Below, one piece after another: positions 34,028 through 42,675 of a DNA stretch of 64,000 bases (the stretch's first letter is position 1; every line of letters begins with the position of its first letter). Origin of the DNA: Burkholderiales bacterium. Lineage in GTDB: Bacteria; Pseudomonadota; Gammaproteobacteria; Burkholderiales; JABEVD01. Below the pieces are notes generated by a model. The model was not told where the DNA came from. It ran no database searches and saw only the letters and a program-made list of their open reading frames with translations. The stretch spans positions 62,001 through 126,000 of the forward strand of contig JAIELG010000016.1 of the NCBI GenBank assembly GCA_019753155.1, given 5' to 3'. The position numbers and the translations under genes are program-made.

Positions 34028-34498
34028 TCACGGCATATCGGTCTTGTTCTCGATGAACAGGGCATGGGCGGCGTCATGCACCATTTCGGACAGGGCCTTG
34101 TCGTCGGGTCCGCTGATGACCGAGGGATGGGTGTCCATGGTCATCTGGTAGCTGCCCTTCAAATAGAGTTTCACTTCGGCCCTGAGATAAGACACGAGGT
34201 ATGTCGGGGATGGAAAGCCGCTATGGGAGCCGCCCTTCCAGACCTTGCGCAGGGTTTTGAACGACCAGACCACCCGGTTCGGGACAGGGTTTTCTCCCGG
34301 CTCTCCCGCTGCGAAATGCAGGGCGGTCTCTTCCTGCATTTTCTGGGCCAAATAGGCGGCCAATTGCGCCTGCGTGAAGCCGGGAACTTCCCCCGACACC
34401 TCGATCACGATGATATCCGGCGTAGCGGCCGCTTCGGCAATGTCCGCCAGAGAGAACGAAAAAACGACCGCCGCCAAAACCATTTTAGCCATACGCAT
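34028..34498 (-). CDS. Exported protein of unknown function
   Basis: This 156-residue protein has a clear signal peptide (MRMAKMVLAAVVFSFSLADIAEA, cleavage near residue 23) and a mixed alpha/beta mature part with conserved-looking aromatic stretches (VVWSFKTLRKVWKGG, TYLVSYLRAEVKLYLKGSY). I do not recognise the family. The ATG at 34498 has AAAGG eight bases upstream; an ATG eight codons earlier is possible. It is convergent with RNase T2 one base away. A MITE lies in its upstream region. Confidence 0.7.
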   Translation of the reverse strand: MRMAKMVLAAVVFSFSLADIAEAAATPDIIVIEVSGEVPGFTQAQLAAYLAQKMQEETALHFAAGEPGENPVPNRVVWSFKTLRKVWKGGSHSGFPSPTYLVSYLRAEVKLYLKGSYQMTMDTHPSVISGPDDKALSEMVHDAAHALFIENKTDMP

Positions 34499-34595
34499 GG
34501 AAAATACCTTTCGAACTTGCAAGGATGAACTGGGTGAAACCGCCGATTATATCCATAAATAATTGCGCCCACACACGCATTCGAGCGTCCAATGT

Positions 34596-34873
34596 CTAAG
34601 GAACCGCTGATTTAATCCTGCGTGGAGCACGTTGCTGGGAAAGATGATCGCCGGACGCGCGACGCAGGTCGTAGCCGGGTCTATTGAGCCAAGGAGCGCG
34701 ACAAAGCGAGCGCTCGATTTTTACGCAACCCTACAGGGACGGGGCTTTGCGGGCGATGCTCTTTGTCGCTCGATTTGCGAATGGAATAACCATTCGCTGC
34801 GTCTCGCTTCGCGAGCCTCATCCCGCAAAGCCGGCCGTCGCGCCTACGCAGGATTAAATCAGCGGTTCCCTAA
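34596..34873. mobile_element. Complete MITE with 23-bp inverted ends and CTAA target duplication
   Basis: GGAACCGCTGATTTAATCCTGCG at 34600-34622 is matched by its perfect reverse complement at 34847-34869 (23 bp; shown here by its first bases only where longer than allowed). CTAA flanks both sides (34596-34599 and 34870-34873), a YTAR duplication as made by IS5-type transposases. The 270-bp interior is rich in internal palindromes and has no coding frame. The right CTAA contains the stop codon of the MgtE-like gene. Confidence 0.85.
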
Positions 34874-36117
34874 TCCAGCCGCGGCTTGATGCCGCGAATG
34901 TCCCTGAAGGAAACCACGGCCAGCAGGATGTTTTTTTCATCCGTGACAGGAATGGCGCGAAAACCGTAGCGCTCGAACATGTCCACTGCATCGCTCAGGG
35001 TATCTTCCGGACTCAGGCTGATGACATTCTCGGACATGATTTCCCCAATCGACTGCTCAGACTCGGCGGCAACGAGTTCCCGGATATCGACGACCCCTTT
35101 CAGGACATCCTCTTCGTCGGTGACATAGACGTACATGATGACGTCCATGTTCCTGGCAAATTCCCGAAAATCCGTCATGACCGTCTTGACCTGCATTGAC
35201 CCGGACATTTTCATGAACTTCCGGGTGGAATAGAGGAGAATGTTCTCGTCATGGTGGTCGATTATCTTCTGTACCCTGGCGGAATTATCCTGATCGATCA
35301 TCTGCAGCAATTCGTCCGCTTCGGCAGTCGGCAGCGCCGCCAGGATGATGGCTGCCTGTGCCGGGCTCATGGCGTTGATCAATCGGGCTGCGTGGCGTTT
35401 TTCGATTGCGTGGATCAATTCGCGCTGAACCCGCGGCTCCACCTCTTCCAGGGTATCGGAGGCATGTTCCGGTTCGAGTTCCTTGAATACCGCCAGCCGC
35501 TGCTCGCTGTCCAGCTCTTCCAGGATGTTCGCCATGTCGACCGGATGGATATCGCTGATATTTTCTTTGAGCACGTTGAGTTTGACGTGCCCCTTGAAGG
35601 TGTCGATATGTTCCGGCAGCCGTTGGACGTACATCCATGAGAGCGTCCCGCCTTTCTCCTGCGCGGATATCCAGTCGGCGACTTTCTTCAGACCCAGACG
35701 GCGCAGCAGATGCCGCCTGCTGAAATCGACTTCGCTGACATACAGCTTGCCGTCCTGAAAGTCGAGGCTGATGTCATAGATGACCTCGACTTCGTGATCG
35801 TCCATGTCAAGGATCTTCTTGTCGAGAATATGTGAGCGAAGCAGGATCGATCCCTCTGCAGGCGGGCGTACGTACTCGGTCGGATCGCTCAAATCGAATA
35901 CGATTTCCGTGTTCGAGATCAGAGTCAGTTTGTCCCACGGCAGCAACAACGGGGGATAACCGAAAGGGCGGCTGACAATAAAATGGCTGACCTCGGGAAG
36001 TTTTCCGGTCTCGACGATTACCATGTCGCTCAAGCGGCCGATCCGCAGGGCTTTCAGATAGACACGGCGACCGATGATTTCACTGAGAAAAAATTTGTGT
36101 TCCAGTACGGAGACCAT
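34870..36117 (-). CDS. MgtE cytoplasmic-domain protein (PRC-like, MgtE-N, CBS pair) without channel
   Basis: The 415-residue soluble protein has a PRC-barrel-like N-terminal region (about 1-165), an MgtE-N superhelical domain (about 188-295, HPVDMANILEELDSEQR) and two CBS domains (about 300-352 and 356-412). In MgtE these last two parts sense Mg2+ and gate the channel; here the five-helix channel domain is absent. The gene lies 11 bases after a small membrane protein and an NRAMP-like transporter, so it probably regulates that transporter in response to Mg2+. Its TAG stop comes from a MITE target duplication. Confidence 0.88.
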   Translation of the reverse strand: MVSVLEHKFFLSEIIGRRVYLKALRIGRLSDMVIVETGKLPEVSHFIVSRPFGYPPLLLPWDKLTLISNTEIVFDLSDPTEYVRPPAEGSILLRSHILDKKILDMDDHEVEVIYDISLDFQDGKLYVSEVDFSRRHLLRRLGLKKVADWISAQEKGGTLSWMYVQRLPEHIDTFKGHVKLNVLKENISDIHPVDMANILEELDSEQRLAVFKELEPEHASDTLEEVEPRVQRELIHAIEKRHAARLINAMSPAQAAIILAALPTAEADELLQMIDQDNSARVQKIIDHHDENILLYSTRKFMKMSGSMQVKTVMTDFREFARNMDVIMYVYVTDEEDVLKGVVDIRELVAAESEQSIGEIMSENVISLSPEDTLSDAVDMFERYGFRAIPVTDEKNILLAVVSFRDIRGIKPRLD

Positions 36118-36128
36118 CAGGCAACCCC

Positions 36129-36302
36129 TCAGTTCAGCATCAACACGAATTTGTAAAGGATCAGACTGACCAGCAGCAAAAGGTAAATCCGCAGCGCCAT
36201 CAGCGAGATCTTTACGCCGAGCGACATCTCGATATGAGGTTTGCTATAGCGTTGGTTGATTTCCCGTATTTTGGCGGCGAAACGGTGCAGGCTTGACGGC
36301 AT
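36129..36302 (-). CDS. Small single-pass membrane protein
   Basis: A 57-residue protein has a basic N-terminal half and one hydrophobic helix (about residues 31-55, SLMALRIYLLLLVSLILYKFV). It starts at an ATG with GGAGA eight bases upstream; a GTG overlapping the NRAMP stop is an alternative. It lies between the NRAMP-like transporter and the MgtE-like protein and might link them. I know of no named family. Confidence 0.65.
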   Translation of the reverse strand: MPSSLHRFAAKIREINQRYSKPHIEMSLGVKISLMALRIYLLLLVSLILYKFVLMLN

Positions 36303-36316
36303 GTCCGGTTCTCCGG

Positions 36317-37585
36317 TCACTGGAACAGATTGGGGAACATGACGCTGATCCCATACAAGGTTGACAAAATCACGATCGAGACGACGATAAAGCCGCCGAT
36401 CAGGTTTTCCGTCAAGGTATTGCAGTGCTCGCCCATGTGTTTTTTGTCGTTCAGCAGCAATATCAGGAACACCAGGGCGGCGGGCAGCAGGGTCACGGCC
36501 ACCACCTGCACGAACAGGGTGATCAGCACCAGCGGCGCCTTCGGAATCAGCACGATCAGGCCGGCGCTGATCAAGGTGAAGAAGTAGCTGGCATAGAACC
36601 AGGGCGCTTCCCTGATTTTCTGATTCAGGGAATGCGCCCAGCCGAAAATTTCGCCGAAAGCCCAGGAACTTGCCAGTGAAATGCAGATGGCGCCGAGCAG
36701 TCCGGCATCGAAAAGACCGATGGCCATGAAGGTGCCGACATAGTGATTGGTCTTCAACAGATGCTCGGCAGCCTGGGATGCGCTGTCGATGTCGATGCCT
36801 TTCAGGACGGTACCCGTTACGATGACAATGAAAATGGCCACCACGACCGTCAATATCGAACCCAGAAGGGTATCGAATTTCCCCCAGGGGATATCCTTCT
36901 CCTGCATTCCTTTATCGACCACCGCGCTTTGCTGGAAGAAGAGCATCCAGGGGGCGATGGTGGTGCCGATGTTCGCCATCAGGAAGAAAAACAGTTCGCC
37001 ATTGAAGCCCCCGGGAAAATTCGGAACGAGGCCGTTTTTGAGTATGTCCGAGACCGAGGGGTTGACCATGAACGCGCCCGGGATGTAGATGAGGTTCAAC
37101 GCGCAGAAGAGCAATGCTATTTTTTCCCAGGTCCAGTAACGGCCGTTCAGCACGATCATGCCCATCAAGGCCACCACGCCGGCAACCGTCAGCCAGGGCG
37201 ACACACCGAAGATGCGCAGCGACGAAGTCATGCCGACGAACTCGGTAACCAGCGTCAGCCAGTCCACGATCATCAGGTCGATCAGCGAAAACCAGCCCCA
37301 GAAGGCGCCGAAACCGTTGAAAATCGCCTCTGCATGGCCGCGCTTGGTGACGGCCCCCAGGCGCACGGTCATCTCCTGCACATAGTAGGCGACCGGGATC
37401 AGGATCAAGAGGAACCAGATCAGGTTATAGCCGTATTTCGCACCGGTAGCCGCGTAAGTGGTAATGCCCCCGGCATCATTGTCGGCAACCATGACCACCA
37501 GCCCCGGACCTGCGATGACAAGATAGAGCTGGACGGCTTTCCAGTATTTTCTGAACTTGTAATAGAGTTTTGAAAATAAATTCAT
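36317..37585 (-). CDS. NRAMP-related transporter 1 (NRMT-like)
   Basis: The 422-residue protein has about 11 membrane helices in the NRAMP arrangement. In TM1 the usual DPGN metal motif is DAGG (ADNDAGGITTY), and in TM6 the MPH motif is APW (IGTTIAPWMLFFQQS), so the Asn and Met ligands for Mn2+/Fe2+ are missing. Loss of that methionine is characteristic of NRAMP-related Mg2+ transporters. With the adjacent MgtE-type sensor this suggests Mg2+ uptake. It is 34 bases downstream of an OprB-type porin. Substrate is inference. Confidence 0.87.
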   Translation of the reverse strand: MNLFSKLYYKFRKYWKAVQLYLVIAGPGLVVMVADNDAGGITTYAATGAKYGYNLIWFLLILIPVAYYVQEMTVRLGAVTKRGHAEAIFNGFGAFWGWFSLIDLMIVDWLTLVTEFVGMTSSLRIFGVSPWLTVAGVVALMGMIVLNGRYWTWEKIALLFCALNLIYIPGAFMVNPSVSDILKNGLVPNFPGGFNGELFFFLMANIGTTIAPWMLFFQQSAVVDKGMQEKDIPWGKFDTLLGSILTVVVAIFIVIVTGTVLKGIDIDSASQAAEHLLKTNHYVGTFMAIGLFDAGLLGAICISLASSWAFGEIFGWAHSLNQKIREAPWFYASYFFTLISAGLIVLIPKAPLVLITLFVQVVAVTLLPAALVFLILLLNDKKHMGEHCNTLTENLIGGFIVVSIVILSTLYGISVMFPNLFQ

Positions 37586-37619
37586 CTCGATGCCGCTATC
37601 TTGAAATGTTTACAGCAGG

Positions 37620-38978
37620 CTAGAACTCCACATGCGCTCGAGTCCCGAAAATCGAGACCGGCCCCCTATCCTGGTTATGGGCCGGATTGACGACGTACTG
37701 GTAGTCCAGGGTCAGCACGAGATGATCGGTCGCGTGCAGGGAATAATAGGTTTCCGCGATTTTCTCCGGGCCGTAATTCAGCCGGCCGTCGCCGATCAGG
37801 ATACCGATTCCCCCGGCCGCAAAATAATTGCGCGCAGCGCCTGAGAGTCCATTGGCGGCTGCGGCAAGGCCGAATATGTCATCGTGGCGCCCCCACCGAT
37901 CGCCATGCAGGGATAGCCCGGCGCACAGGGACCGGTTGATCTCGGTGAATTCGAAAGCTTCCTTGCTGCCGTCGTTCATGCTGGCCCGTACAAAAACACC
38001 CAGATCGGAAGAGACTTCCTGTTCGATGTTGATTGCGGCGCCGGGGCGCGAACTGCCGCGCCGAACCAGCGCAACATCCGGTGTCGTGTTCGTCTGCATT
38101 GCAAGCCGCAATGCGTCGTCGTAGCTTCCCATCCTGCCCTGGTTGAGAAAACCCAGCAGCTTGATTTTTCCGGGGTGTCCATACAATTGATGCCGTTCTT
38201 CCAGTTCCCCGACCCACTCGCGCTGGCTGAGTTTCGGATCCAGCTTCGTGCCGTTCGGACTCTTGGAAAGATCGAACAGCCCGCCCCGCAATGTCCACCA
38301 GGACTGGGTCCATTCGGCGGATGCGCCGGTCGTGTACCCCCACGCATCGGCTGCATAGTCGAAAGCCCCTGACTCCACTATAGACCAGTTCATGAAATCG
38401 GATCGCGGGTCATGCGCGTAGATATTGGTGTCGAAGACATCGACGACGGAAAACTTGCCTGCCGTCAGGATGACGTTGTCGGTCGATTGCGTGCCTCCCA
38501 ACTGGTTGGCTGCCGATTCCAGGGGCTGCTCGCTTCCGCCCAGGCTGATGGTTTGCCGGTAAAACAGCCTGGGCAGCCGGAGATAAGGGCCATTTGCGCC
38601 TATCTTGTAGGCTTCGCCGCTTGGAAAGCCTGCCATCCCGACGGTATTGGTCAGGCCGAAGCCCTGGTCGATTTCAGGATTCATCCAGATTTCGCCGCCA
38701 TTCGAGATGCGAAACCCTGCAAACAGGGTCAAATCCGAGGTTTCGTTGCTGTTGCTGGTGGGGGTCAGGCTGTTTTGGCCCTGGTAGGGCGATGTGAATG
38801 CCGGATGCCATTGGCTGACGTTCGTGAATTGAACATGCATGCCCCAGGTTTCCGGGAGAGGTTGTTCGGGTGCGGCTATCGAGGAAAGCGGCAACAAGAC
38901 CGTTACGGCGGTTGCAACGGTCTTCTGGTGCCAATATTTTCTTGTCGAATCAAACATTTTAAGATGATATGCAGGCAA
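37620..38978 (-). CDS. OprB-type outer-membrane porin B
   Basis: The protein (about 445-452 residues) has a signal peptide (cleavage near IAA-PEQPLP) and alternating beta-strand pattern, and ends YQYVVNPAHNQDRGPVSIFGTRAHVEF with the terminal Phe typical of BAM substrates. This matches the carbohydrate-selective porin OprB family. It is a paralogue of porin A directly upstream. The start is uncertain: TTG at 38978 or ATG at 38957. Placed between two metal-transport genes, it may pass divalent cations rather than sugars; that is inference. Confidence 0.85.
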   Translation of the reverse strand: MPAYHLKMFDSTRKYWHQKTVATAVTVLLPLSSIAAPEQPLPETWGMHVQFTNVSQWHPAFTSPYQGQNSLTPTSNSNETSDLTLFAGFRISNGGEIWMNPEIDQGFGLTNTVGMAGFPSGEAYKIGANGPYLRLPRLFYRQTISLGGSEQPLESAANQLGGTQSTDNVILTAGKFSVVDVFDTNIYAHDPRSDFMNWSIVESGAFDYAADAWGYTTGASAEWTQSWWTLRGGLFDLSKSPNGTKLDPKLSQREWVGELEERHQLYGHPGKIKLLGFLNQGRMGSYDDALRLAMQTNTTPDVALVRRGSSRPGAAINIEQEVSSDLGVFVRASMNDGSKEAFEFTEINRSLCAGLSLHGDRWGRHDDIFGLAAAANGLSGAARNYFAAGGIGILIGDGRLNYGPEKIAETYYSLHATDHLVLTLDYQYVVNPAHNQDRGPVSIFGTRAHVEF

Positions 38979-39001
38979 TATTACAGCGGTATTGCAGCCC
39001 C

Positions 39002-40420
39002 CTAGAACTCCACGTGCATGCGCGCCCCGAAAATCGAGACGGGCCCCCGGTCCTGGTTATATGCCGGATTGACGATGTACTGATAGTCCAGAGAAAATGA
39101 TGTATCCTTCGCTACGCCCAGGCTGTAGAAACCCTCCAGTATTTTTTCCGGCTGGTAGTTGAGTTTGCCGTCGCCGATGAAAAAGCCCAGGCCACCGTTG
39201 GCCAGATATTGCTGGTGAACCGAAGACAGGCCATTTTGCGCATATGAAATACCGGCCGTGTCGTCGGGACGCCCCCAGGCATTGCCTTTTGCAAGGATTC
39301 CGCCCGAGAACGACCGCTCGATTTCCGTGAAGGCATAGGTTTCCGTGCCGCCGTCGTTGCGGCTGAGACGCATGAAAAGACCGATGTCACGGGTAATGTA
39401 TTGTTCGAGATTGACGCCGAATCCTGTCTTGGACTGGTCCTTGCGCACATTGCCGACATCGGGTACGCCTGCGCGACCATGGCTGTTCCAGAAGTTTAGG
39501 GCATCCTGAAAACGTCCCATGCTGGCTTCGTTGCGGAAGGCGAGCAGGCGCAGCCTGCCTGGCTGCCCGGAAATTTCATGGTTGTGCTCAAGCTCCACCT
39601 GATCGCCATGATGCGCCATGATCCGCGAATCGAGCGTCAGGCCATTGGAGTCGATAGGCTGCTCGAAACGCCCGGCACGGAACGCCCAATCGTCCCGGTA
39701 GTATTCCAGCGCCACGCCGTCCGTATAACCACGCGAGTTTGCCGCGTAATCGAAGGCGCCGTAGGTCATGATCGACCAGTTGAGGAACTGGGTGCGCGGA
39801 TCGTGGGAAAAGCTGTTGTTGTCGAAAATATCGGTCAGGGCGATTTTCCCCACGGTCAGCACCAGCCGGTGCTTGTCTATCTGGCCGGACATCTGGTTGG
39901 GGGCGGATTCGATCTTGTCCTGCCCCCCGCCGAATCCCCATGTATGGCGGACGAACAGGCGCGCCGTGTAAAAAATGGGATTGGGGCCGCCGCCCTTCTG
40001 GTTCTCGCCGTTGGAGAGTCCACCCAGACCGGTGAGATTGGAAAGCGACTGGCTCATGATCATTTCGGGATTGAAATACAGTTCTCCGCCTTGCCATAGC
40101 CGGGCTCCCAGGAAGGCCGTCGCGGACAGGGTGTAGCTCCGCTTTTCCAGGTCGGGCGACAGGCTGTTGGCGCCGGAGTAGGCGGACGTGAAGGCAGGCT
40201 TGCGCTGCCAGACGTAGGTGCTCTGGAATTTCGCCTGCGTCATTTCCTCCGTGTCCACCTGCCGATCGGCGCCGCGTGCAGGTGCGCAAAGCATGAGGAG
40301 GCCGACGAATGCCACGCCCATCCATTGACATAGGCTCATCGATGCACCGAGCGCACCGCAAATCGGCATTGCGGCGTGTTTGAAATGAATTGAATTTACG
40401 ATCCTGGTGATTGGTTTCAT
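39002..40420 (-). CDS. OprB-type outer-membrane porin A
   Basis: The 472-residue protein has a signal peptide (hydrophobic segment near residues 30-50, cleavage near ARGA-DRQ) and an OprB-like barrel ending YIVNPAYNQDRGPVSIFGARMHVEF. I chose the ATG at 40420 with GAGG upstream. It is preceded by a 292-base leader with a 16-codon frame and two hairpins, and followed 23 bases later by its paralogue. OprB proteins import sugars, but the surrounding transporters point to ions. Confidence 0.86.
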   Translation of the reverse strand: MKPITRIVNSIHFKHAAMPICGALGASMSLCQWMGVAFVGLLMLCAPARGADRQVDTEEMTQAKFQSTYVWQRKPAFTSAYSGANSLSPDLEKRSYTLSATAFLGARLWQGGELYFNPEMIMSQSLSNLTGLGGLSNGENQKGGGPNPIFYTARLFVRHTWGFGGGQDKIESAPNQMSGQIDKHRLVLTVGKIALTDIFDNNSFSHDPRTQFLNWSIMTYGAFDYAANSRGYTDGVALEYYRDDWAFRAGRFEQPIDSNGLTLDSRIMAHHGDQVELEHNHEISGQPGRLRLLAFRNEASMGRFQDALNFWNSHGRAGVPDVGNVRKDQSKTGFGVNLEQYITRDIGLFMRLSRNDGGTETYAFTEIERSFSGGILAKGNAWGRPDDTAGISYAQNGLSSVHQQYLANGGLGFFIGDGKLNYQPEKILEGFYSLGVAKDTSFSLDYQYIVNPAYNQDRGPVSIFGARMHVEF

Positions 40421-40440
40421 TTTGAGCAACCTCATTAAGC

Positions 40441-40483
40441 GAATGCGACACGCATTCCTGCCATGGTCATGCCCGAGCATGAC
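40441..40483 (-). promoter_or_regulatory. Two hairpins in the porin A leader
   Basis: GAATGCG/CGCATTC with a three-base loop (40441-40457) and GTCATGC/GCATGAC with a four-base loop (40466-40483) stand side by side, ending 20 bases before the porin A ATG. They could control access to the ribosome-binding site or be operators. Confidence 0.5.
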
Positions 40484-40638
40484 TTGCGCAGTTACGATAT
40501 ATACAGGAGATGCACTCCCCTGGCCGAAGGTGATGGGGTGGAGCAGTCAGCCGCGAAGAAGCGGTCGAGCGTCCAGTGGACGCCGACACGGGGGCAGTCG
40601 AAGTTCCCTATGGCCCCGCGTGAGGCGGTGCAGGAGAA

Positions 40639-40689
40639 TCAACTTTGCCGGGCTGCCGCACTGCCCGAACTACAAGGGTCTGGATCCAT
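40639..40689 (-). CDS. Candidate 16-residue MgtL-like leader peptide
   Basis: Right after the NRAMP-related gene 2 stop, a consensus AAGGAG five bases before ATG opens a 16-codon frame MDPDPCSSGSAAARQS. The alternating acidic/proline start resembles Salmonella MgtL (MEPDP), whose translation falters at low Mg2+ and thereby controls the downstream Mg2+ transporter. A C-rich stretch follows before porin A, as expected of a Rho-loading site. Function is inferred from position and motif only. Confidence 0.45.
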   Translation of the reverse strand: MDPDPCSSGSAAARQS

Positions 40690-40712
40690 AATGGCTCCTT
40701 TGTGTGGGCAGT

Positions 40713-42329
40713 TTAGAATGCCAGTTGGATGACCTTGTAGATGCCCATGATCATGGCAATCAGCAGGTACATGCGCAGCACGCCCAACCAGCTGCGTTTC
40801 GCAACGGAAAGCCGGGCCGGCTTCAGTTCGCCCAGCGGCGGCATGCGCCAATGGATGGCATTTTCCCTGGAAACCGGATCATCATCGGTATTGACAGCAC
40901 CTTTGCGCATGCTCCATATGCCGATTGCCGCGATCAGCCCTGCAATGCCGCCACCGGCGAGAATCATGACGATCGAATCGCCCGAGAGATCCGGGAACGC
41001 CACGGAGGCCGTCAGAATCAGGGACAGGAGCACGAGAATTCCGCACACGATTGCCGTGAAGATATTGGTGCTTTTGGTGTTGACCCATGGGCCGAGCACT
41101 TCCTTGTCGTTGCACAACAGGAGCAGGAATACCGAAGCGCTGGGCAGCAATATTCCGGCAAGCGTTTGCACGGCGTTCGTGAGCAGGCCAAGGGGCATGC
41201 CGGGCGTAACCACCAGTGCCGCCGCGATCACGATCAGCACCAGGTAGACGGCATAGAATCCCTTGGCTTCCGTCGGTTTGCGATGGAGCGAATGCTTCAA
41301 TGAAAGAACGTCTCCGATGGCGTAGGCCGTCGACAGGGAAACGGCTGCGGCACCGATGATGCTGCAATCGATCAGTGCGATGGCGAACAGGGTTCCCATC
41401 AGTTTGCTGTGATGATTGGCAAGCCCCGTAGCCACGGCCGCCGCGTCGGTGAAATTGCCGAACTCGGGCTGCCCCGCAAAGGTCGCCGCAGTGAATGCGA
41501 TCATGGCCACCGCGCCGATCATTACGATGATGATTCCAAGCCAGAGATCGATGCGTTCGTACTTGATGAAACGCGGTGTGATGCGCTTGTCGATCACGTA
41601 GCTTTGCTGGAAGAAGAGTTGCCATGGGGCAACGGTCGTTCCGACAATGGCGATGATGAGCAGCATGACATCGCTGATTTTGGCGCCTTTCGGCATCTGC
41701 GGTGTCGTGAAGTCATGCAGAACCTGGGGCATGGGCGGATGCACCATGACGAAGATGGGCACGAGCAGCAGGCTGCCGGCTACCAGGGTCAACGCAAAAC
41801 GCTCGAAGCGAAGGAAGCTGCCTGTTCCTGCTGCGAGGATGATGAGCACGGATGCAATGGCCACGCCTGCGAGTTTTGGAACGCCGAGATAGTCAAGGCC
41901 GAGGCTGATGCCGATGAACTCGGTAACGATGGTCAGGGCGTTAAGAACGAACAGGTCGATCACGCTGAATGCTCCCCAGAACTTGCCGAACCGCTCCAGA
42001 ATCAGGCGGGCATGGCCGACTCCCGTTACGGCGCCCAGACGCAGCACCATTTCCTGGTTCACGTAGAGAACCGGGATCAGCAAGGCGAGAGACCAGAGCA
42101 GGCTGGTGCCGTAATTCTGACCGACATGGGCGTAGGTTTCAAATGCGCCTGCATCGTTGTCGCCGACCATCACAATGAGTCCCGGGCCGAGAATTGCAAG
42201 CAATGTCTTGATGCGATGCCACAGGCCGGCCCTGGGGCCGGTATCGCTGTGGCGAATCGTGCCGAGAGCACCACGAATGTCGCCGATATGAGCGCTGTCG
42301 AGGACGGCAGTGTGCGTAGTTGTAGTCAT
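40713..42329 (-). CDS. NRAMP-related transporter 2 (NRMT-like)
   Basis: The 538-residue protein has about 11-12 membrane helices. TM1 reads VGDNDAGAFETYA and TM6 VGTTVAPWQLFFQQS, so, as in transporter 1, DPGN and MPH are replaced (DAGA and APW). A longer C-terminal part (about residues 440-538) adds hydrophobic segments and a charged loop. The start at 42329 has AAGGAG seven bases upstream. A long hairpin-rich leader precedes it. It is the first gene of the transporter-porin-sensor cluster. Mg2+ as substrate is inference. Confidence 0.87.
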   Translation of the reverse strand: MTTTTHTAVLDSAHIGDIRGALGTIRHSDTGPRAGLWHRIKTLLAILGPGLIVMVGDNDAGAFETYAHVGQNYGTSLLWSLALLIPVLYVNQEMVLRLGAVTGVGHARLILERFGKFWGAFSVIDLFVLNALTIVTEFIGISLGLDYLGVPKLAGVAIASVLIILAAGTGSFLRFERFALTLVAGSLLLVPIFVMVHPPMPQVLHDFTTPQMPKGAKISDVMLLIIAIVGTTVAPWQLFFQQSYVIDKRITPRFIKYERIDLWLGIIIVMIGAVAMIAFTAATFAGQPEFGNFTDAAAVATGLANHHSKLMGTLFAIALIDCSIIGAAAVSLSTAYAIGDVLSLKHSLHRKPTEAKGFYAVYLVLIVIAAALVVTPGMPLGLLTNAVQTLAGILLPSASVFLLLLCNDKEVLGPWVNTKSTNIFTAIVCGILVLLSLILTASVAFPDLSGDSIVMILAGGGIAGLIAAIGIWSMRKGAVNTDDDPVSRENAIHWRMPPLGELKPARLSVAKRSWLGVLRMYLLIAMIMGIYKVIQLAF

Positions 42330-42600
42330 GATGACTCCTTGAGTAGTTCGCGAGGGGCGGCAGCTTGCCGGCTCTCGGGGTATTTTTAACGGCATGCTGC
42401 GGCATTGCCCGAAGGGCAATTCCATGACATGGCAACACAAATGGCCGGGGGAGGTGCTCAGAGTAACCCGCGCTTGCGCGGGTTGAGGGGATCTACTGCT
42501 GGCGCACCGTCCCGCTGAATCAGCGGGACGGCGGCGGGAGTCTTAAAGACAGTGCCTTCGCTGGTTCAACCGACGCGGTTTAATAAGCTATTAGGGCAAC
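42330..42600 (-). ncRNA. Structured leader RNA, candidate riboswitch
   Basis: The transcript region contains GGTTGA pairing with TCAACC about 90 bases later, enclosing a perfect 12-bp palindromic hairpin (42507-42531, CCGTCCCGCTGA side). The 3' strand of that outer stem overlaps a second hairpin AACCCGCG/CGCGGGTT (42465-42484), so the two are mutually exclusive. A third hairpin ATTGCCC/GGGCAAT lies nearer the gene. I do not recognise it as M-box or Mn2+ riboswitch. Confidence 0.45.
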
Positions 42601-42675
42601 TGTCCAAGATGCCTCCCTTGAGAATAAGATGGGTGAATTTTCCGATTTTTCGTCGCAGAAGTCAACATGATTTTG

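Follow-up and report, generated by a model that had tools for sequence, protein, structure and literature searches.

A candidate two-membrane Mg2+ acquisition locus with a detached MgtE-type sensor in a Burkholderiales bacterium

Genes of the locus

We analysed a 64,000-nucleotide stretch of a Burkholderiales genome (GenBank assembly GCA_019753155.1, contig JAIELG010000016.1, positions 62,001 to 126,000; hereafter the window), in which six neighbouring genes may together encode a system for acquiring Mg2+ across both membranes. A preliminary description of this DNA had listed six same-strand genes for, in order, an NRAMP-like transporter (NR2), two porins (A and B), a second NRAMP-like transporter (NR1), a membrane protein of 57 amino acids (aa) and an MgtE-N/CBS protein without a channel. 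The positions of the open reading frames (ORFs) and their Pfam domains bore this out, with all six genes on the minus strand and in that order:

40713..42329, minus strand: NR2 (NRAMP-like 2), NRMT-type transporter of 538 aa with a C-terminal extension; Nramp 6.5e-79 (Pfam)
39002..40480, minus strand: porin A, OprB family (PF04966); Pfam 7.7e-38
37620..38957, minus strand: porin B, OprB family (PF04966); Pfam 8e-50; a longer ORF reaches 38978
36317..37585, minus strand: NR1 (NRAMP-like 1), NRMT-type transporter of 422 aa with 11 predicted transmembrane helices; Nramp 1.6e-73
36129..36302, minus strand: 57-aa protein with a single transmembrane helix (LRxY family) and a positively charged N-terminal part; ATG at 36302
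34870..36117, minus strand: MgtE-like protein of 415 aa, channel-less; MgtE_N 6.7e-22, CBS 3.6e-16, PRC-barrel 3.1e-5 (Pfam)

The genes for porin B, NR1, the 57-aa protein and the MgtE-like protein are separated by gaps of about 34, 14 and 11 bp, a spacing that suggests a single operon, and NR2 lies 232 bp from porin A. An alternative GTG start, overlapping the NR1 stop, would lengthen the 57-aa protein to 63 aa; neither Pfam nor NCBIfam has a family that matches it. The PRC-barrel of the MgtE-like protein had not been listed in the preliminary description.

Carriers of the NRMT type

EleNRMT (7qia), which carries both Mg2+ and Mn2+ and whose transport is not H+-coupled (PMC8806188), is the closest solved protein to both carriers (1.6e-66 for NR1, 1.5e-51 for NR2). 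NR1 has the same ion-site motif as EleNRMT, DAGG/TTIA, a form of the methionine-free signature DxxG-TxxA/T. The NR2 motif, DAGA/TTVA, fits this signature in its second half, and an alanine replaces the glycine of the first, as it does in one orthologue (L142); two other NR2 orthologues (L078 and L079) carry DAGG. Because of this DAGA, we class NR2 by its sequence as NRMT-like and not as a full NRMT member. Most sampled non-NRMT relatives have DAGS/AVIM or DPSG/TTIS instead. In a tree with class-wide relatives, NR1, NR2 and a third group formed one clade (Shimodaira-Hasegawa-like approximate likelihood ratio test 95), and a large DAGS/AVIM group that keeps the soft methionine fell outside it. 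The nearest solved structure and the ion-site motif thus narrow the NRAMP-type assignment of the preliminary description to the Mg2+ (NRMT) type, for whose members Mg2+ transport without H+ coupling would be predicted. The ion-site motif DAGS/AVIM or DVGS/AVIM also marks a group of NRAMP relatives (L197-L217) that is common in Proteobacteria and distinct from both NRMT and canonical NRAMP.

The two PF01566 genes of this 99.7% complete genome are both at this locus, and there are no others. We found no CorA in the genome, by a search that was positive in 14 of 14 control genomes, and no canonical MntH; it encodes one MgtA pump (1194 bits).

A probable detached MgtE-type sensor in a conserved triad

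The only MgtE_N gene of this genome is the one at the locus. Its product comprises PRC-barrel region(s), MgtE_N (residues 190-290) and a CBS pair (about 296-408), and its structure model (predicted local distance difference test, pLDDT, 75) shows beta-rich N-terminal domains followed by the MgtE_N superhelix and the CBS pair. The best structural matches of this model are MgtE cytosolic domains (2yvy, 5e-18). Among the residues through which TtMgtE contacts ATP, namely Y170, R187, F227 and D188 (PMC5529423), the first three align to Y329, R346 and F386, which are invariant among 32 homologues, and the counterpart of D188 is E347, a position that has E or D across the same set. The protein has the MgtE_N and CBS-pair sensor module of the MgtE channel, with conserved ATP-contact residues, but differs from it in an extra N-terminal PRC-barrel, in the unrelated carrier encoded next to it and in two absences: it ends after the CBS pair and so lacks the plug helix, and the PF01769 channel domain is found neither in it nor elsewhere in the genome. 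Having no such pore, it does not count as an MgtE channel.

Searching species-representative genomes with the MgtE-like protein, we obtained 46 loci, 45 of them on contigs that reach far enough to be evaluated. The order NR1, 57-aa protein, MgtE-like protein was intact in all 45, a count that holds from the MgtE-like side only because the collection started from that protein. By their titles the hosts belong to Betaproteobacteria, Gammaproteobacteria, Magnetococcales and Chlorobiaceae (Chlorobia), and the genes flanking this triad are otherwise variable. The preliminary description had proposed looking for channel-less MgtE-N/CBS genes beside NRAMP genes, and with NR1 such co-encoding proved strict; of the six-gene system it had envisaged, the triad is conserved but the full unit is not.

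The link between NRMT and an MgtE-like protein is not new, since Shin et al. (2014) reported NrmT beside an MgtE-N-like gene and proposed feedback regulation (PMC4072509); we found no mention of small membrane proteins or porins in that paper. The locus has the transporter clade, the NR1 motif and the adjacent channel-less MgtE cytoplasmic module in common with the known NRMT/NrmT systems (EleNRMT, Clostridium acetobutylicum Ca_c0685). It differs from them by adding the 57-aa LRxY protein (fused in NR2), OprB-family porins and a second NRMT, and by a different leader in place of the M-box. The form that comes closest to the arrangement published for C. acetobutylicum and A. capsulatum is L090:9426-12028, in which an NRMT gene (DAGG/TTIA) and a PRC-MgtE_N-CBS gene overlap and leave no LRxY protein between them.

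A proposed single-helix partner, separate or fused

The 57-aa protein consists of a basic N-terminal part of 31 residues and a single transmembrane helix with an LRxYL motif. Sequence and profile comparison revealed a related helix at the C terminus of NR2:

40716..40772, minus strand: residues 520-538 of NR2, a C-terminal LRxY helix related to that of the 57-aa protein

In NR2 this helix follows an extra transmembrane helix and a 48-residue basic linker, and charge and hydropathy suggest an N-in orientation that would match that of the separate protein. The AlphaFold model of NR2 (pLDDT 46) is too poor for placing the helix. The fusion is present in four of four NR2-type proteins (NR2 and its orthologues in L078, L079 and L142), and in the third NRMT clade an ORF of about 65 aa with an LRxY-type helix directly follows the NRMT gene in eight of eight loci. 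Together with the triads, this brings the linkage between LRxY and NRMT to 45 triads, 8 separate ORFs and 4 fusions, and no LRxY helix was seen in the remaining tree rows outside the three clades.

Single hhalign comparisons among the three forms gave E values of 5e-5, 8e-7 and 1e-5. With a profile of the 57-aa protein, 10 of 12 real sequences scored 8.1-17.6 bits and outscored all but one of 4443 shuffles, the top two of which reached 10.3 and 7.9. As the similarity is short, common descent of these helices is likely rather than proven, but they co-segregate perfectly with three sister NRMT clades, which supports a role in common. Wherever the MgtE-like protein occurs, the 57-aa protein has a conserved cytoplasmic part, KIREINQRYSKP.IEMS, which is different where the MgtE-like protein is absent. 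No homologue of the 57-aa protein was found in a plasmid collection. The LRxY single-helix protein would be a conserved NRMT partner, separate or fused, that is apparently new.

OprB-family porins recur beside Mg2+ importers

Both porins match PF04966 above its curated cut-off; porin B matched no solved structure by sequence, and the nearest relatives of porin A are other NRMT-linked porins. The genome has three OprB-family porins, two at the locus and a third that starts 4 bp past the mgtA stop on the same strand (mgtA and porin together at L107:5413-9511), so all three adjoin Mg2+-type importers. Such neighbourhoods recur in relatives, in keeping with the tie between porins and importers that had been proposed for this locus. 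MgtA is directly adjacent to the porin in 8 of 20 contexts among the best-scoring hits from order-level relatives; three of these pairs come from the same genus and five from other families, and both gene orders occur. Porins are neighbours of NR1 in 6 or 7 of about 42 loci (L009, L012, L013, L030, L039 and, on the downstream side, L016; L014 has a remnant); others adjoin the NR2 orthologue in L142, follow NRMT and the LRxY ORF in L080 and precede a canonical MntH-like NRAMP in L094. Naive p values for adjacency, which ignore relatedness, are about 5e-18 for MgtA and 5e-9 for NR1. On the porin tree, MgtA adjacency requires 8 changes for 9 rows, and at least 7 on well-supported branches, which disfavours simple inheritance of one porin-MgtA arrangement.

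Two genomes of the same genus (L175 and L173) have an orthologue of porin B and, immediately after it and with no NRMT between, one of the gene that lies downstream of the MgtE-like gene. The triad either arrived beside a porin already in place or was lost from these genomes. The preliminary description had cited Bradyrhizobium MnoP as a precedent for an outer-membrane channel that serves an importer. A closer one is FeoP of the Acidithiobacillus feoPABC genes, an OprB-family porin whose gene accompanies those of a divalent-metal importer of the inner membrane (PMC2631029, PMC2621215), although the partners here are NRMT, MgtA or MntH, not FeoB, and the predicted metal is Mg2+.

As observations apart, porins of small-genome relatives (group f32, L155-L158) lie upstream of OEP/CusB-like/RND efflux genes, which suggests a wider metal link, and K+ transport genes (kdp and kup), recognised by eye on sequence alone, lie near the porins of two same-genus loci (L177 and L175).

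A leader common to NRMT, porin and mgtA genes

Short ORFs with a Shine-Dalgarno (SD) sequence recur upstream of NRMT, porin and mgtA genes, and their DNA aligns as an element of about 150 nucleotides that runs from a promoter-like TTGAC through the SD sequence and NTGGACAGT to a GC-rich hairpin. The copy in the window lies upstream of NR2:

42637..42665, minus strand: promoter-like TTGACT-17-GAAAAT upstream of the leader; a consensus match only, such sites being regionally at chance level
42474..42629, minus strand: leader with SD-like GGGAG, possible short ORF and GC-rich hairpin; covariance-model scores 85.5 bits (R1) and 80.4 bits (R2), this copy being a member of both training sets
42566..42607, minus strand: candidate short ORF in the leader with a TTG start, MDSCPNSLLNRVG

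With a threshold of E 1e-5, a covariance model built from 12 copies found 21 sites in 1.37 Mb, nine of them outside the training set, and a second model from 21 copies recovered the same sites. All 21 lie upstream of, and on the same strand as, an NRMT (NR1, NR2 or third clade), porin or mgtA gene, and 11 OprB-family porins are among the genes so preceded. The controls, 440 kb from other parts of this genome and 844 kb surrounding NRAMPs of non-NRMT type and unlinked porins (1.28 Mb in total), yielded nothing below E 0.1. Same-genus mgtA genes have a related-looking leader (for example, MGSNYFCNICAVNSFRR in L172) that scores only marginally with the model; the mgtA leader of this genome resembles these copies, with CCG in place of the NTG start triplet.

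The leader could act as a translated ORF or as a structured RNA. MgtL is a Salmonella short ORF that controls a Mg2+ transporter. The same holds for Salmonella mgtQ (PMC8092293), and the leader resembles both in placing a possible short ORF and a stem-loop ahead of a Mg2+ transporter gene and in having Asp at codon 2 in most copies. It differs from them in its predicted peptide (MDS[C/S]...) and in being common to unrelated transporter and porin genes. It is a real possibility, short of probable, that the element is a structured, riboswitch-like RNA and not a translated ORF: the primary sequence TGGACAGT is conserved, three pairs of the hairpin have compensatory C-G to U-A changes, and within codons 2-4 it is the second position and not the third that varies most, without the usual synonymous pattern of coding conservation. 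Translation is favoured by a start triplet that is always NTG (13 ATG, 5 TTG and 3 GTG), usually with SD-like sequence ahead of it, and by a frame that always closes after 9-21 codons to give a peptide of about MDS[C/S][P/S]S... Pairing of the start region with a downstream segment was not above that in shuffles.

A model for Mg2+ acquisition and its alternatives

From gene content, motifs, the conserved triad, the helix fusion, the porin linkage and the common leader, we propose that this is a two-membrane Mg2+ acquisition locus with a detached MgtE-type sensor, a reading to which we assign a probability of about 0.58. The OprB-family porins would admit Mg2+ to the periplasm, from which NR1 and NR2 would carry it across the inner membrane. 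NR1 would pair with the 57-aa single-helix subunit, which would abut the carrier and keep its basic N-terminal part on the cytoplasmic side, NR2 having a fused equivalent. That cytoplasmic part would dock the soluble PRC-MgtE_N-CBS protein, which would sense cytosolic Mg2+, probably together with ATP as MgtE does, and slow uptake when Mg2+ is plentiful; the 57-aa protein may thus replace the MgtE plug as the link from sensor to carrier. The leader, common to NRMT, MgtA and porin operons in relatives, would set expression. Mg2+ as the substrate, the selectivity of the porins, docking, gating and the response of the leader are all predictions from sequence. The two-membrane Mg2+ import put forward in the preliminary description thus gains from the porin-MgtA pairs, the common leader and the lack of CorA and MgtE channels; its pairing of NRMT with an MgtE-like protein was already published.

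Several observations weigh against this proposal. NR2 has DAGA where DAGG is expected, and the A. capsulatum NrmT, which has an MgtE-like neighbour, behaved as a Mn2+ transporter; co-expression with an MgtE-like fragment gave it no better Mg2+ rescue (both PMC4072509). The count of triads is one-sided, and the MgtE-like protein is absent beside the other two LRxY NRMT clades. An MgtE-like neighbour is not universal for NRMT: it was found in 0 of 40 contexts of the class-wide sample, which consists mostly of non-NRMT relatives. Of 39 other triad genomes, 23 have CorA, so NRMT does not replace CorA as a general rule. Neither the M-box nor another known Mg2+ riboswitch was found at the locus, and the leader matches no Rfam family. 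In a phylum-wide sample, whose high-GC loci were checked by tblastn for NRAMP, MgtA and MgtE-like neighbours only, most members of the porin family lie next to neither NRAMP nor MgtA, and metal-efflux genes flank some of them. Because the neighbours also include canonical MntH-like NRAMP and Kdp/Kup, the porins may be general cation pores.

These points feed three alternatives. The carriers might mainly import Mn2+, or Mn2+ and Mg2+, with the porins, MgtE-like protein and leader forming a general divalent-metal or Mn2+ system. We consider this unlikely, although EleNRMT carries Mn2+ as well, the A. capsulatum NrmT (which has no M-box) rescued Mn2+ transport fully and Mg2+ at low millimolar only, and the L094 porin ahead of an MntH-like NRAMP has the same leader. 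The NR1 site has no soft methionine ligand, the same leader and porin family accompany the Mg2+ pump MgtA, and the genome is without CorA and MgtE channels; its lack of a canonical MntH cuts both ways. It is quite unlikely that the porins are diffusion or sugar pores of the ordinary OprB type and neighbour the transporters by chance. The family name and Pfam annotation (carbohydrate-selective porin), the many members in the phylum-wide sample without such neighbours and the same-genus genomes that retain porin B at a site without NRMT all fit that view, but the placement of all three porins of this genome, the repeated gain or loss of MgtA adjacency in both gene orders, the adjacency statistics and the leader ahead of 11 such porins argue otherwise.

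The MgtE-like protein, finally, might not gate NR1 and might instead be a separate Mg2+ or nucleotide sensor, a chaperone or another regulator. The unaltered behaviour of the A. capsulatum NrmT on co-expression, the missing plug helix that links sensor to pore in MgtE and the two LRxY clades without an MgtE-like neighbour point that way. Gating is favoured by the strict linkage of the MgtE-like gene to those for NR1 and the 57-aa protein and by the cytoplasmic part of the latter protein, whose difference between clades with and without the MgtE-like protein fits docking; we regard a non-gating role as improbable. A wider and more tentative extension of the two-membrane proposal, to which we give somewhat less than even odds, is an undescribed Mg2+ regulon in several lineages, in which one leader would control NRMT with LRxY, MgtA and OprB-family Mg2+ porins and in which the NR1 form would be sensor-gated through LRxY. 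The LRxY subunit, the porins linked to Mg2+ importers and the common leader appear to be new, as we found no description of them in open-access literature, Rfam, Pfam or NCBIfam, within an incomplete coverage of these sources.

Passage of Mg2+ through the Gram-negative outer membrane is usually credited to general porins, and a porin subfamily tied by operon and leader to NRMT, MgtA and MntH-type importers would, if the proposal is true, be a specific and testable answer. As far as we checked the literature, NRMT studies have dealt with the carrier alone or with an MgtE-like fragment, so the conserved 57-aa partner is a candidate for a missing subunit. A sensor module common to the MgtE channel and an unrelated carrier would amount to transplanted gating, and the leader could serve as a marker for mapping the Mg2+ regulon in other genomes.

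Further features

Two other features of the window lie between or next to these genes:

40639..40689, minus strand: MDPDPCSSGSAAARQS, a candidate second short ORF of the leader type that has a good SD and lies between NR2 and porin A; weak, a single occurrence missed by the covariance model
34028-34522: secreted-like protein of 164 aa in no Pfam family

The start of the MDPDPCSSGSAAARQS ORF resembles MgtL; the motif behind this MgtL-like reading, MDPDP... upstream of porin A, occurs once in 2.55 Mb, about chance overall, so that we keep the ORF as a weak candidate only. An orthologue of the 164-aa protein directly follows the porin B orthologue in the two same-genus loci L173 and L175.

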